Part shown: piece by piece, positions 8,901 through 19,390 of the stretch
Layout: every line of letters begins with the position of its first letter
How positions within the stretch are numbered: the stretch's first letter is position 1
DNA from: a virus
DNA: 62,920 bases
IMG/VR virus record: IMGVR_UViG_3300017783_003723
Location: 1 to 62,920 of that record
Strand: one strand, 5' to 3'
The notes under the pieces: generated by a model
Seen by the model: only the letters and a program-made list of their open reading frames with translations
What the model was told of the DNA's origin: nothing
The model's database searches: none
Position numbers and translations under genes: made by a program

Positions 8901-9497
8901 TGTAACAGTAAACGTAATGTCATCTTCTTCACCTGTACCACCTATAGTAATAGCACCTACAGAAAGAACTTCTCCTATTCTATAATCTTCTCCTCCAGTA
9001 GGTAAAATCTTAACAATGTCTCCATTTTCTACTACAATATCAACAGTAAGTCCTGTTCCTATTCCATCAGATGATGTAGTTGCAATACCAGTATAAGTGC
9101 CATCATCTCTTAGTATGTCAGTAGTTGAAGTATTTGTTAATAGACTAGGAGTACCTAAAAGCTGTACAGTTGGTGCTGTGATATATCCGTCACCAATATT
9201 GGTAATATTAATTGCAGTGACTTCACCAGAAGAACTTAGTGTTGCTGTGGCTGTTGCTCGTACTAAATCATCGCCGGGTATTGTACTTGTTGGCGCACCG
9301 ATTAATACTTTTAAATCTGCTACAAGAGTAGTTGTAGTTTGTCCAAAATAAAGAACATAGTTTTCTCCAAAATAGTCAATAGCATATTGCTGGTCTCCAG
9401 AAGTCAATACATTTGAATTGCCTGGCTGAAATCCACTACCGCCGTTCGTGACGGTAATATTTTTTAAGAATTTTTGAAATCTAGGAGCTACACTCAT
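6000..9497 (-). CDS. Very large baseplate/tail structural protein in the gp7 position
   Basis: 1165 aa. The start overlaps the gp6 stop as TAATG at 9497. Residues about 230-360 hold a conserved segment (EFVRDEYPLFATFIKKYYEYLE, then TSKGTKKAIENLFKIMYNE, then VFVPNSLVLRPSDNNW) that I recognise from large structural proteins of T4-like marine phages. The flanks carry glycine-rich beta repeats like those in gp8. The C-terminal third contains several copies of a YAxDYFxEDY motif. Gene order 25-PAAR-6-this-x-8 matches T4 25...6-7-8, so it may do the job of gp7 in the wedge. That equivalence rests on position, not on visible similarity to T4 gp7. Confidence 0.75.
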   Translation of the reverse strand: MSVAPRFQKFLKNITVTNGGSGFQPGNSNVLTSGDQQYAIDYFGENYVLYFGQTTTTLVADLKVLIGAPTSTIPGDDLVRATATATLSSSGEVTAINITNIGDGYITAPTVQLLGTPSLLTNTSTTDILRDDGTYTGIATTSSDGIGTGLTVDIVVENGDIVKILPTGGEDYRIGEVLSVGAITIGGTGEEDDITFTVTKINGGSGFTATVELDQVGKENSYYPEKISTTVTNQIPEFVRDEYPLFATFIKKYYEYLESNTTSFGISPTNVINTIQDRLDVDFKDNLEETSTDFLDEFFEDYGKDFPVTMQADKNLLVKHITDFYTSKGTKKAIENLFKIMYNENIEVFVPNSLVLRPSDNNWSREYVVKVYENIFLPATGGTIYDPTEFEGKAVIISYFESTGSVTTRKERETVVKQVKKISYTVPQAYELTLELPDDFVIPSIGTGATYTPVLGGKIATINSLSGADASRTTGTYVIDTTEYTTNGNGTGAEFNVVVDNTGQATVSITTVGDNYAPGETITIPDTRLGNGGGAALTFNIATITDGKIFSITIDSAGEQYSANHPLIVTADTSDTITQVAEPLVRVTDGKATSVVFVDDKNGVGYNHIPQLRESLYFQAAYISLPTDDRTDANSKRAIPNRILHKVAVKSTTGEANGGFAVGQSFQVDENATLSPYALDYFGEDYTLTGIANRAFVKVAQVGTDNFPTALDVIAIGVGFQSSTFDFNIVSPLGYTTTLTCTTGYNAVYPGIFEDTRGFLSDANKVQDSRLYQAFSYQIRSERPKSEWGEFVKRAAHPSGMVAFSDLQIKNAIDFNTVTSVDTDLFFYVVMPDIEEVLVSETVAKDMHLPSEADTYATSEPYYSMEPGLNKVDITDFTELLAKDIETVYTDEVNPFHGSLVFDVEAVLIDNSIVDDNAPLFVIESVLADTYDADDLTALETSKPLSDSYQFEDTDSEYAVDYFANDNGNYTAGVPLVVLHFDKHFDQLTFGAYATNYFAEDYTDETSEANSNNAGDRVHYSDVPSVEWQSGIIADTFNVQDSAVVTLIIVRAVNDSLTTADNVELLNIGLGPTEIVSTADPINVMNVTTTYTDTYSSQDVLTGKDVGMLPTESIETSENVLKFPSINKTDTSNANESGSVIKTDFVDSTDYFLEDYVASEVRSIA

Positions 9498-11410
9498 TAG
9501 TCAGCTACTCTTGGTACCATTGTAACCGTTACTCCGGCTCTTATATTATTCAAACTATCAACTGAACTTTTGTCCAAATTCAAAATAATATTTCTTGCTG
9601 GTAAAGGAGTAACTGCAAATTTTTGTTCTTCTGAAGTTCTAATTAAAACGTCAGTAGAAATATCTTTAGATCCTTCATGTGGTGTTGCACTAACTCTTAT
9701 ATCAGGCACTGCACCATTAACAGATGCTACATTAATTGATGGTATGTCAAGTGCACCCGTATCATAATCAATAGTTCCTAAATTTTCTAATAAGATGGTG
9801 TTAGAATCAACGTCACGTAGTTCTAAAACTCCTAAACCAGAATAAACTGGAGCGATAACATCAGCATTAGGTTTATCTACTATTGAAACTTTAGAATATG
9901 TTACATTGTTTATGATTACATTAAAGTAATTTGTTCTAATAGAATTAGGTAATATTTTATTGTTGAATTTAGGTTCGTATCTAGTGTTATTATTTAATAC
10001 TGGAATAAGACGTTTTTGAATACGTAACTCAATATTGTTACCTATAATAGACTTAGATACATTATTGATTCTATTGGTTATAAATGAGTAATAGAAATTT
10101 TTCTTCAGAGCGTTTAGTGTACCAGCAAAATAACTTTGTACTTCAGCAATGATTAATGCTTCTAGTGCAGAAGGAGATTGTGAAGTTACTTTAGGGTCAT
10201 ATGTTGCTGAAATATTTAAACCAACAAAAGTGAACTCTGGATCTACAAACTGGGTATCCATTGTAATAGGTTGTTTTAAGGCAATTACATCATTCTTGAG
10301 AGTGTTCTTTTCTTCTGTCGTAATCGTAAATCCGTCTTCTGGTTGTAAAGATACAAAAACTCTTCCGTAAATAGGAGGATCATTGTCTTCACCACCCCAA
10401 GCGGTAACGGACTTAATGTTTGGATTTGCGGCTTTAATAACAGTTTCATAATCTGTTCTTGTTACGATTCTATTTTTTACTGCATTATATCTAGGAGCAG
10501 TGAATCTGATACTTTCAACATCTTCTCTAACAGCTCCACCACTTGCGGCTGTTGTTACTGTTCCAACAATACTTTCATTTGCTCCTGATAAATTTTGTGC
10601 GTTCCTAAATGCTCTAGCACCATTTGGATTAGAACCACTACAAACAACATAATCTACTGTTACAATATTTCCTATTTCTAGTTTTTTACCTAAAACACCG
10701 TCACCAAAAGATACTTCATAAAATCCAGAAGTTGCTTCTTCAATATAAAACACTTTTGATGTGTCTGTTACATCCAAAATTGTATCTGAAAATACATATG
10801 TATCTGTAACACTACTATTTGTGTTTGCTTTTACTGTTACTTGAATTGTAGTGGTGTCTACATTATTATTTGGTAAAAGTATTGGACCTTGTAAGTTAGT
10901 AGCAGTAATAATTTCAGATGTTGTTGTACGCCTACCTTCAACTAATTCAATTCCTGTTGCAACAAACTGTTCAGTACCTGCAGAATTAAAAGTTTTTGTA
11001 ATTGTTTTATCTGTTGAAGGTGAGAAAGCATATGATTTGCCATTTACAGATGTAGTAAATACTGTGGATTTTGGAATAAATAATGTATTAGAAGTGTATG
11101 TAGGATCTGGTGTAATAGTAAAATCAACATATGCTTTTGCAGACCTTGCTGATCTAGGAGTATATCCCATAGTCTTTGCAATTGAAACAACGGAATTTCT
11201 TTTTACTGCGGAATCAATAAATGATTCATTCGCAATCATGTGAGCCATAACTGCATTGTAATGTGTATTATATGCAAGAAGATCAATTAAAACAGACAGT
11301 CCAGAAGCATCAAAGTTGTAATCAGAAAACTCTTCTTGTGATTGAAGGTGAGTTTTTAGATTTGCTTTTACTTCTTCAAAGTCTAAATTTGTGACGTTTT
11401 TGATTGCCAT
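9497..11410 (-). CDS. 6: Baseplate wedge protein gp6
   Basis: 637 aa, close to the 660 aa of T4 gp6. The N-terminus, with NLDFEEVKANLKTHLQSQ and DASGLSVLIDLLAYNTHYNA, is the hallmark of the gp6/baseplate J-like family, and RNSVVSIAKTMGYTPRSARSA follows as expected. gp6 dimers form the ring that joins the wedges around the hub. ATG 11410 is preceded by a purine-rich GAGAGAAGAG sequence. It lies between the PAAR protein and the large gp7-position protein and is translationally coupled to the latter by a TAATG overlap. Confidence 0.92.
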   Translation of the reverse strand: MAIKNVTNLDFEEVKANLKTHLQSQEEFSDYNFDASGLSVLIDLLAYNTHYNAVMAHMIANESFIDSAVKRNSVVSIAKTMGYTPRSARSAKAYVDFTITPDPTYTSNTLFIPKSTVFTTSVNGKSYAFSPSTDKTITKTFNSAGTEQFVATGIELVEGRRTTTSEIITATNLQGPILLPNNNVDTTTIQVTVKANTNSSVTDTYVFSDTILDVTDTSKVFYIEEATSGFYEVSFGDGVLGKKLEIGNIVTVDYVVCSGSNPNGARAFRNAQNLSGANESIVGTVTTAASGGAVREDVESIRFTAPRYNAVKNRIVTRTDYETVIKAANPNIKSVTAWGGEDNDPPIYGRVFVSLQPEDGFTITTEEKNTLKNDVIALKQPITMDTQFVDPEFTFVGLNISATYDPKVTSQSPSALEALIIAEVQSYFAGTLNALKKNFYYSFITNRINNVSKSIIGNNIELRIQKRLIPVLNNNTRYEPKFNNKILPNSIRTNYFNVIINNVTYSKVSIVDKPNADVIAPVYSGLGVLELRDVDSNTILLENLGTIDYDTGALDIPSINVASVNGAVPDIRVSATPHEGSKDISTDVLIRTSEEQKFAVTPLPARNIILNLDKSSVDSLNNIRAGVTVTMVPRVAD

Positions 11411-11435: not shown

Positions 11436-11443
11436 TATTTATG
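11436..11443 (-). promoter_or_regulatory. Possible late promoter variant upstream of gp6
   Basis: CATAAATA, one base from the TATAAATA late consensus, lies on the minus strand 25 bases before ATG 11410 and overlaps the stop of the PAAR gene. Position is right for gp6, but the first base differs from consensus. Confidence 0.4.
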
Positions 11444-11750
11444 CGCCAATTATGACAGTAGGGTAAGGAGTTGTAGTGACAATTCCCCCACATGAAGCCA
11501 CTGAACCTACCATAGCCACGGCTCTCCCATTTATTGTTACCGTACTAGATCCTGTACTTACTGTTATCGGTGCCACGTGCGGGGTCGAGGAAGTTCCGCT
11601 GTGTGGTGCCACGACATCCCCAACACATACTATATAAGTTGTTCCAGCTTTGACAGTCACGTTGGCTAGTGTGACCGCGCCAACTCCAAATGGAGTCACA
11701 TGGGCTTCATCTGCGCCAGCGGTTGCAGGTCCAACTAGTACACTAGGCAT
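11439..11750 (-). CDS. PAAR-repeat tail spike tip protein
   Basis: 103 aa. The protein carries the repeated HxTPFGxG...VxVxG and HxxPI...VxINGxxVAxVG pattern of PAAR proteins, with histidines and a late cysteine (SCGG) suited to bind a metal at the cone tip. T4 has an equivalent, gp5.4, at the tip of the gp5 needle. The start shares one base with the gp25 stop, so the two are coupled. The presence of gp5 nearby fits a complete membrane-piercing spike. Confidence 0.9.
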   Translation of the reverse strand: MPSVLVGPATAGADEAHVTPFGVGAVTLANVTVKAGTTYIVCVGDVVAPHSGTSSTPHVAPITVSTGSSTVTINGRAVAMVGSVASCGGIVTTTPYPTVIIGA

Positions 11751-12145
11751 TATCTTAACCTCGACAAGACTAAATCCATTTCTTGTAAATCTTTAATACC
11801 TAATATGTAATAATATACATAAATGCGATATTCGTTATCTTGTTGATTCGCAAGTACTTGTACTCTTTTTACATCAACTCTAGGTTCGTGATTTGAAATT
11901 GCTTGTTGTACTAATTTTTGCAATGCACTACCAGTAGTATCATCTATTGGCTCAAACATCAACTGGCGTATCTGAGATCCCCAATTGGGTTCAAAGGGTC
12001 TTTCATTCAGATTGGTATAGATTATATTTTTCATTGCCTGACGAACAGCATGGACATCAAATTTTTTGCCAATGTCCTTAGATATAAAGTTCTTTGTAAA
12101 CTTCATATCGATGTCTTTATAGAGTCTTACAGGTTCTTTTCTCAT
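11750..12145 (-). CDS. 25: Baseplate wedge protein gp25 (lysozyme-like GPW fold)
   Basis: 131 aa, similar to T4 gp25 (132 aa). LYKDIDMKF, then IIYTNLNERPFEPNWGSQIRQLMFEP and a NHEPRVDVKRVQV segment match the gp25/GPW family, which anchors sheath and wedge. The first residues align with the T4 N-terminus (LYSDID), so the ATG at 12145 is kept as start. Only five bases separate that ATG from an exact TATAAATA late promoter, which would put the A of ATG at +1. The message from that promoter would then be leaderless. Confidence 0.92.
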   Translation of the reverse strand: MRKEPVRLYKDIDMKFTKNFISKDIGKKFDVHAVRQAMKNIIYTNLNERPFEPNWGSQIRQLMFEPIDDTTGSALQKLVQQAISNHEPRVDVKRVQVLANQQDNEYRIYVYYYILGIKDLQEMDLVLSRLR

Positions 12146-12150
12146 AGTTC

Positions 12151-12158
12151 TATTTATA
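12151..12158 (-). promoter_or_regulatory. T4-type late promoter abutting the gp25 start codon
   Basis: Exact TATAAATA on the minus strand in the 21-base gap before gp25. The octamer is followed by five bases and then ATG, matching the T4 distance from octamer to +1. An AGGAG lies upstream of the octamer and would be lost from this transcript, though it would be present in read-through messages. Confidence 0.6.
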
Positions 12159-12166
12159 ACTCCTAA

Positions 12167-18316: not shown

Positions 18317-18324
18317 TATTTATA
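18317..18324 (-). promoter_or_regulatory. T4-type late promoter abutting the 190-aa gene start
   Basis: Exact TATAAATA on the minus strand in the 18-base gap between two genes. Six bases separate it from ATG 18310, so the predicted +1 falls at the base next to the start codon. This is the same arrangement as at gp25. It probably drives the 190-aa gene and gp48-gp53 downstream. Confidence 0.65.
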
Positions 18325-18328
18325 CTCG

Positions 18329-19390
18329 TTAAAACTTATTATTGATCCAATCTAAAATTACTTTTTGTTCTTCTTCTTGATCTTTTTTAAAGAGTAAGGA
18401 TAATAAAGATCGATTGTGTTCAAGTCTATTGGCTAAAGAAGTTGTGAGTAACATCGTGTTTAATTGGTTTAGTGGTATTGAAGATAGTCGTTTCAATTCG
18501 GCAAATATCATATCACATCGTTTGAAAAGATTATCTTCGTTATCGTAATCATGGTTAACAATCTCATCAAACATATCATATCCCATGCTTCTTAGGTGTT
18601 GTACTATTCCTGGAGCTCCTAATATAATGGGTATTTGGTGCATATAGAATGCCTTAGTTGTTTTCTCTGTTATAAAGAGTCTATCTGTATCTGTAAATAC
18701 TCCATCATAGTATCGTGATGTATTCATACCGATAGAAGATTCCAGTACTACATTGAACATAGCAGTAGAGAACTCGTCAAAGTAACTGTGCTGATCTTCT
18801 GATTTATGACCAAGTGTTACAGGAAATCTACTCATCTCTTCATCTGATAATGATATACACTGGAGTTTCATGGGCTCTATGTCTCCCCACCCACATGATA
18901 CTATACCCTTATTGTATAATTCTGTATCGTTTAATATATTATTCGTGAAGTATATTCTTTCTTCTCTAGCCATTCTTGCTAAACTAATAAAAACTTTTGT
19001 TCTCTTTCGTTCAGGTATTAAGTTTGGTCCGGGGTAGCAATATTGTAATGATCTATCTGTAAAATGCTGAATATTATTGTTGAATTTTTCGTATTGTGCT
19101 TTTCCTACTAAAATAGGAGGCAATTCTCCTCCATCTATAAACAAAATACGTTTGTAACCCACATCAAGCAAAAGATTAAACACAACATTCCAATGTATAG
19201 AATGTAATGCTTCGTATAAAAAAGTGACGATTATGTTTTCTGTTAAGGGTAACACCTCAATAGCTTTTCTAACATGATCACTCAAATCCCGTTCGAAAAT
19301 TTTCTCACAACCTAGTACACAAGTATTTGGAATATCTTTGAACTTATCGTGCGTTTTATTCGTATTATACATTTTTTCAGAATAAGTCAA
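18329..19390 (-). CDS. Glycosyltransferase-like protein (GT10-like C-terminal motif), inserted in the structural block
   Basis: 353 aa. Residues about 245-300 contain LFITEKTTKAFYMHQIPIILG followed by LRSMGYDMFDEIVNHDYDNE. The TEK...K...PI..G core recalls the donor-binding part of GT10 fucosyltransferases and is shared with three other proteins in this window. The N-terminal half is not recognisable. Its start overlaps the gp4 stop, and it separates gp4 from the 190-aa structural gene, which are neighbours in simpler T4-like genomes. This looks like a late-acquired accessory gene. Whether it decorates virion proteins, DNA or host glycans is unknown. Confidence 0.6.
   Translation of the reverse strand: MTYSEKMYNTNKTHDKFKDIPNTCVLGCEKIFERDLSDHVRKAIEVLPLTENIIVTFLYEALHSIHWNVVFNLLLDVGYKRILFIDGGELPPILVGKAQYEKFNNNIQHFTDRSLQYCYPGPNLIPERKRTKVFISLARMAREERIYFTNNILNDTELYNKGIVSCGWGDIEPMKLQCISLSDEEMSRFPVTLGHKSEDQHSYFDEFSTAMFNVVLESSIGMNTSRYYDGVFTDTDRLFITEKTTKAFYMHQIPIILGAPGIVQHLRSMGYDMFDEIVNHDYDNEDNLFKRCDMIFAELKRLSSIPLNQLNTMLLTTSLANRLEHNRSLLSLLFKKDQEEEQKVILDWINNKF

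Follow-up and report, generated by a model that had tools for sequence, protein, structure and literature searches.

Late transcription in bacteriophage T4 is a textbook system, and the cI gene of phage lambda is a single repressor gene under the control of a host-type promoter. The T4 late octamer occupies positions -13 to -6, according to an excerpt of PMC1524935, and mRNAs that begin with a 5'-terminal AUG and have no Shine-Dalgarno (SD) sequence, including the lambda cI message, are translated in Escherichia coli (PMC4965119, in excerpt). In Mycobacterium tuberculosis, a large class of leaderless mRNAs is found beside the leadered ones (excerpts of PMC4633059 and PMC3898074), and T4 gene 25, at the 26-25 junction, has a split ribosome-binding site, in which a distant SD sequence is combined with a hairpin (PMC3014915, in excerpt).

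AR9 was rejected as a leaderless phage precedent, its untranslated regions being 26-491 nt long in the available text of PMC5312081. The available text of the Melnitz paper (PMC9004378) contains the word “leaderless” solely in the title of a reference. The same text reports 15 predicted late promoters for Melnitz, along with a coactivator, a sliding clamp, and a sigma70-like gene, and a survey of the pelagimyophages reports, in the portion available, that late-promoter prediction was unsuccessful (PMC7029224). A full-text literature search, which covers few subscription papers, recovered no published report of a systematic pairing of T4-type late promoters with leaderless mRNA among the matches listed. 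Both ingredients, the T4-type late promoters and leaderless phage mRNA, are known, and their systematic combination was not found in print.

The locus described here lies in a viral DNA fragment of 62,920 nt (IMG/VR record IMGVR_UViG_3300017783_003723), the whole of which is referred to as the window. On the minus strand, the sequence upstream of and into gp25 reads 5'-TAA TT AGGAG T TATAAATA GAACT ATG AGA AAA-3', and the range 12143-12158 comprises the octamer and the ATG of this gene (Table 1). The sequence-only reading had proposed a late promoter placed in such a way that the gp25 mRNA would be leaderless, and the arrangement on which it rested (the octamer, five bases, and the ATG) is exact. 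The octamer is a perfect match to the T4-type late promoter sequence, with the start site inferred from its position, and the start codon is AUG, as is expected of a leaderless mRNA. As the T4 octamer lies at -13 to -6, the A of the gp25 ATG would be +1, which agrees with the earlier proposal. The AGGAG was also correctly placed upstream of the octamer, and is predicted to be missing from a transcript starting at 12145 and present on a read-through mRNA, and no SD sequence is found between the predicted +1 and the start codon. It appears highly likely that this octamer is a working gp55-dependent late promoter that begins a leaderless late mRNA at the A of the gp25 ATG, and that it represents one case of an arrangement found in marine T4-like phages.

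Table 1. Features of the gp25 and gp2 start regions and of the neighbouring genes in the window.
Feature	Coordinates	Strand	Basis
TATAAATA, putative T4-type late promoter octamer of gp25	12151..12158	(-)	direct reading; ortholog spacing
GAACT, five-base spacer, predicted -5 to -1	12146..12150	(-)	direct reading
Start codon (ATG) of gp25, with the predicted +1 of transcription at 12145	12143..12145	(-)	direct reading; offset-5 base preference
AGGAG, Shine-Dalgarno-like, 14 nt from the gp25 ATG, upstream of the octamer	12160..12164	(-)	direct reading
gp25, baseplate wedge subunit, 131 aa	11750..12145	(-)	phrog_261, E 2.5e-43
PAAR-motif protein, next gene on the predicted gp25 transcript	11439..11750	(-)	phrog_281, E 8.4e-9
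gp6, baseplate wedge subunit, farther along the predicted gp25 transcript	9497..11410	(-)	phrog_219, E 1.3e-154
TATAAATA, putative octamer of gp2, 6 nt before the gp2 ATG	18317..18324	(-)	sequence; ortholog spacing
gp2, DNA end protector, 190 aa	17738..18310	(-)	phrog_429, E 8.5e-56

The late cluster of the minus strand is ordered gp2, tail tube cap, baseplate wedge subunit, tail protein, gp5, an ORF of no known family, gp25, PAAR, and gp6, and octamers precede the late virion genes gp25 and gp2, the latter of which is a probable second near-leaderless late gene. In the phage collection, the nearest relative of the window gp6 is found in Pelagibacter phage HTVC008M, and those of gp25 in HTVC008M, Methylophilales phage Melnitz, and Pelagibacter phage Mosig, all three of which are filed under Kyanoviridae in their records; a DNA-level search of the same collection with the region returned no match. 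The PAAR-motif gene separates gp25 from gp6, which adjoin directly in HTVC008M and Mosig, and its protein is only 49% identical in the record G001, versus 92-93% for gp25 and gp6, as if it had been exchanged separately. Between the head-closure gene and gp2 there is an ORF of 353 aa (18329-19390, minus strand) without a PHROG match. Of the ten other records searched, G002 alone contains it at full length, and it has short, weak matches to stretches of the window near 34.6-35.0 and 37.9-38.2 kb. A homology search with the T4 protein as the query recovered gp55 homologs in 10 of the 11 records searched, six of them of the marine type: these are G001, G002, G003, HTVC008M, Mosig, Melnitz-2, Syn9, S-PM2, and RB49, with T4, the source of the query, counted as well. 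The same search found no gp55 homolog in the 62.9-kb window fragment.

Taken by itself, the window stays within chance, and it is the comparison with its relatives that exceeds it. The octamer occurs 10 times in the window against an expectation of 8.8, and its enrichment was rejected as proof of a promoter. The pattern TATAAATA-N4-6-ATG is found twice, at gp25 and gp2, against 0.63 expected, which is equalled by 18 of 100 shuffles, and ATAAATA stands exactly 5 nt before an open-frame ATG at a single site, with 0.10 expected (p 0.09).

In complete or long records, the spacing was counted from ATAAATA to the first ATG that opens at least 50 codons, and the count expected at offset 5 is 0.15-0.28 per record in ten records (the relatives together with T4, RB49, Syn9, and S-PM2). 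In HTVC008M, such an ATG follows at exactly 5 nt in 9 of 45 sites (0.17 expected, p 1e-13), and at 3, 4, or 6 nt in none. The same spacing is found at 6 of 56 sites in Mosig, 6 of 38 in the IMG/VR record G003, 3 of 42 in Melnitz-2, 3 of 62 in the IMG/VR record G002 (plus one site at 4 nt and one at 6 nt), and 2 of 41 in G001, and at 0 of 65 in T4, 0 of 31 in RB49, 0 of 38 in Syn9, and 1 of 59 in S-PM2. The geometry that the sequence-only reading had suggested seeking in related phages thus recurs at many genes. All nine of the HTVC008M ATGs are annotated CDS starts. Some belong to virion genes, which encode the tail tube cap, a gp25-type wedge subunit, a baseplate wedge initiator, gp2 (the DNA end protector), and a putative tape measure protein; the others encode CsgF, a 2OG oxygenase, a transcriptional regulator, and a hypothetical protein whose gene comes after that of the major head protein. 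The transcript starts predicted for this phage include 31132 (gp25), 18916 (gp2), 19456 (tail tube cap), and 49760. In Mosig, three of the six ATGs lie in the part of the record viewed, and all three are annotated starts. The phrog_385 transcriptional regulator has an identical start, CATAAATA-AACAT-ATG, in HTVC008M and G003 (L117 2360 and L159 5192), and a number of small proteins of 52-67 aa, whose cysteines form a CxNCG-type pattern close to the N-terminus, also begin 5 nt after ATAAATA (L220, L224, L225, L227, L238, L250, and L258).

When the open-frame filter is removed, ATG is found at offset 5 in 36 cases over 266 sites in six records (HTVC008M, Mosig, Melnitz-2, G003, G002, and the window, the gp25 loci of the last two being near copies), against a mean of 5.96 at offsets 13-59 and counts of 4, 3, 8, and 8 at offsets 3, 4, 6, and 7. 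There is no rise at this offset in either GTG (2, mean 2.68) or TTG (2, mean 4.60) in these records, although other A+T-rich triplets are also more frequent just after ATAAATA, such as ATA, which is found 18 times at offset 5 and 27 times at offset 3 (mean 8.66). The corresponding ATG counts at offset 5 are 4 in 96 sites for T4 and RB49 (mean 2.47) and 3 in 97 for S-PM2 and Syn9 (mean 2.36). Open-frame cases at offset 5 number 28 for ATAAATA, and at most 7 for each of the other 20 permutations of its letters. An unfiltered pattern count over 19 records, which has no open-frame requirement, found a match in 17; the matches at offset 5, compared with the reversed control, number 2 vs 0 in T4, 2 vs 0 in RB49, 2 vs 1 in S-PM2, 1 vs 1 in Syn9, 0 vs 2 in KVP40, 0 vs 0 in Cr30, 1 vs 1 in ACP17, 3 vs 3 in P-SSM2, and 1 vs 2 in S-RIM32. 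A spacing of 5 is also the mode of the overall histogram (71 cases among the 425 nonredundant sites that have an ATG no more than 60 nt away, from 645 raw), which is biased toward gp2 and gp25, as the loci were fetched around these genes, a bias from which the whole-record counts are free. Gaps of 0-3 are found at 13 of the 425 sites and gaps of 10-12 at eight, so that the two spacing classes are not perfectly separate.

The survey of orthologs, in which the starts were assigned automatically, represents a test without selection on the motif. For gp25, 105 hits provided 101 usable loci, of which 63 are nonredundant (<85% identity), with L201, L253, S-PM2, and L012 being dropped because they had no ATG or were too short. 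ATAAATA is located 4-9 nt from the ATG in 48 of the 63 orthologs (4 nt in 7, 5 nt in 20, 6 nt in 2, 7 nt in 1, 8 nt in 17, and 9 nt in 1), and at 16-17 nt in four (16 nt in 3 and 17 nt in 1). In 11 orthologs, among them T4, RB49, and Syn9, the 60 nt upstream do not contain the motif; L274 was assigned to this group by the choice of a later ATG, its gap being 5 from the upstream ATG. The gap-8 class (17 of 63, L210-L277 and Mosig) mostly reads TATAAATA-TTA(C/G)Y-RNN-ATG, which predicts a 3-nt leader, as at the Mosig gp25 (start 89800), while the predicted leader of the Melnitz gp25 is 11 nt long and begins with AGGAG. For gp2, 90 hits provided 82 usable and 45 nonredundant loci, several with doubtful starts (L053 and RB49, for example); the motif is found 5 nt from the start in 15, at 4 nt in 2, and at 6 nt in 2 (19 of 45 at 4-6 nt), elsewhere in 2, and is absent from the 45 nt upstream in 24. 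In both genes, the spacers and flanks are variable, while the octamer and its distance persist, and at several gp2 loci the octamer overlaps the final Lys-stop codons of the upstream gene, which is a possible coding constraint. On a quick gp25 tree with many weak forks, built from 58 of the 63 rows (L274, L013, L014, L015, and L016 were omitted for doubtful starts), the spacing classes require 11 changes, in comparison with a shuffled mean of 24.9, which suggests that the spacing class is inherited, and has probably been switched several times.

The position of +1 can be approached through the base located five positions after the motif. The leadered promoters (gap of at least 13) of six records have 73 A, 17 G, 16 T, and 4 C at this base (n=110), and those of a wider nonredundant set have 174 A, 59 T, 48 G, and 13 C (n=294). 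A purine is found at this offset in all 17 gap-8 orthologs of gp25, as assessed by eye, and in 14 of 16 cases among all genes with gaps of 8-9. In all four gp25 orthologs with a gap of 16-17, the predicted leader starts exactly at offset 5 with AGGAG (three) or AAGGAG (one), which would place the SD sequence at the very 5' end of these leaders. Six sites with gaps of 12-18 (L030, L019, L034, L025, and one each in G002 and G003) have an SD-like stretch before or across offset 5, and outside the predicted leader. In the first four of these, which encode small basic proteins of 61-71 aa with MxKKK/MGKKR-like beginnings, this stretch comes directly after the octamer and before the predicted +1, an arrangement that the model does not explain. 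The gap of 6 in the window gp2 and that of 4 in 7 of the 63 gp25 orthologs would each require a one-base shift of the start. On balance, the A of the ATG appears to be +1 where the gap is 5.

The spacing is also related to the presence of an SD sequence, in that a match of at least 4 within -18 to -4 is found at 7 of 28 genes with a gap of 5, compared with 91 of 110 with a gap of at least 13 (Fisher p 1e-8), and at 482 of the 738 ORFs that reach 120 aa or more in these records. The AGGAG of the window probably serves a read-through mRNA from the upstream gp2-gp5 cluster. A general rule of dual use for an AGGAG above the octamer is unsupported, given that SD matches of at least 4 are found there in 25 of 89 sites with a gap of 4-6 and 54 of 294 with a gap of at least 13 (p 0.053), and a match of at least 5 in the 12 nt above the octamer is found at six of the 89. 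Four gap-5 octamers (HTVC008M 6280 and 75559, and Mosig 106670 and 24964) are preceded by a terminator-like hairpin with a long stem, which ends 6-22 nt above the octamer, so that read-through should be weak at these sites. As a feature of the class, terminators were rejected, since a permissive rule finds them at 5 of 46 leaderless sites, compared with 67 of 1000 random stretches and 5 of 112 sites with a gap of at least 13.

The geometry, its recurrence, the spacing, the base preference at offset 5, and the scarcity of SD sequences are seen directly in the DNA, while the promoter activity, the start site, and leaderless translation are inferred from them. The best reading of these sequence comparisons is that these phages position gp55-type late promoters in such a way that one class of their mRNAs is leaderless, or nearly so, to which the gp25 mRNA of the window, and probably that of gp2, would belong. 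In the proposed mechanism, the gp55 polymerase would open the DNA at the octamer and start at the A of the gp25 ATG, producing a late mRNA with a 5'-terminal AUG and no leader, on which the ribosome (presumably 70S, with the initiator tRNA) would start without SD contact, and the AGGAG above the octamer would be of use only to the longer mRNA that reads through from the gp2-gp5 cluster. The octamers of the marine T4-like phages lie mostly either at least 13 nt from the ATG, usually with an SD sequence in the leader, or 4-9 nt away, with a predicted leader of 0-4 nt and the AUG only. A broader proposal, which might equally turn out to be right or wrong, is that the marine T4-like lineage, together with some others, uses one promoter type to make two classes of late mRNA, SD-leadered versus leaderless or with a 3-nt, AUG-only leader, that are distinguished by the octamer-ATG distance alone. 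The repeated switching in gp25 would then imply that leaderlessness is selected, perhaps as a form of regulation that favors late translation when the host initiation factors or 30S subunits are limiting.

Other readings of the gp25 start region must be weighed against the leaderless one. The gene may be translated only from a gp2-gp5-gp25 read-through mRNA by way of the AGGAG, with the octamer being an accident of an A+T-rich spacer, as might be expected from an octamer count at chance level in the window, the start of gp25 only 21 bases after the preceding ORF of the same strand, and the conservation of the AGGAG in the close relatives L003-L010. The usual SD spacing is shorter than 14 nt, however, and the gp25 of HTVC008M, among others, has the octamer at 4-9 nt with no AGGAG above it, in addition to which the spacing in the relatives is exact and specific to the motif, all of which makes this reading improbable.

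It also seems quite improbable, if slightly more so, that the ATAAATA at -13 to -6 acts in translation rather than as a promoter, as a ribosome site of the A+U-rich, non-SD kind within a leadered mRNA. The heptamer does sit at the position of an SD sequence, at genes where SD matches are rare (7/28), but other starts have it at a distance of 13-60 nt, in most cases followed by an SD sequence and with an initiator-like A at offset 5, and permutations of equal composition have no spike. The enrichment of ATG, and not of GTG or TTG, at offset 5 also argues against a ribosome site, as do the open-frame cases, which number zero in T4, RB49, and Syn9 and one in S-PM2. A split ribosome-binding site of the T4 style, in which a hairpin between the AGGAG and the ATG would shorten the 14-nt spacing, has a precedent in the device used at the T4 gene 26-25 junction (PMC3014915, in excerpt), and AGTT and AACT could pair between these two elements. 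A stable hairpin was not found at this locus, given that the predicted structure has an energy of -0.8 kcal/mol (z -0.02 vs shuffles) and takes up the last two bases of the AGGAG, and the pairing letters are absent from HTVC008M and L011, which leaves this reading with very little probability.

If the marine phages of SAR11-like hosts do start a class of their late mRNAs at the AUG, such sites could be missed or discarded in promoter searches designed to find the octamer well ahead of the gene. The orthologs of gp25, some leaderless and others leadered, would then provide a natural comparison for studying the conditions under which leaderless translation is favored, and the reasons for it.

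Compared with the known systems, the arrangement in the window shares with the T4 late promoters, which depend on gp55, gp33, and gp45, both the octamer upstream of late structural genes and the predicted distance to the start. In T4 and RB49, by contrast, there is no ATAAATA located 5 nt from an ATG that opens at least 50 codons (0/65 and 0/31), whereas here the start codon coincides with the predicted start site. Such an ATG is found within 60 nt at 34 of the 65 T4 sites, always at least 12 nt away, and 44 of the 55 such sites with a gap of at least 13 in T4 and RB49 have an SD match. The window gp25 and T4 gene 25 are the same gene, and both have an unusual start region, but the hairpin device of T4 is not shared by the window. 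The leaderless mRNAs of M. tuberculosis are those of host genes, unlike the phage late transcription considered here. The likeness to lambda cI lies in the 5'-terminal AUG and the lack of an SD sequence, which are predicted here from the geometry, and the difference is that in the marine phages a promoter of the phage sigma type would govern a whole class of genes, late structural ones and others.
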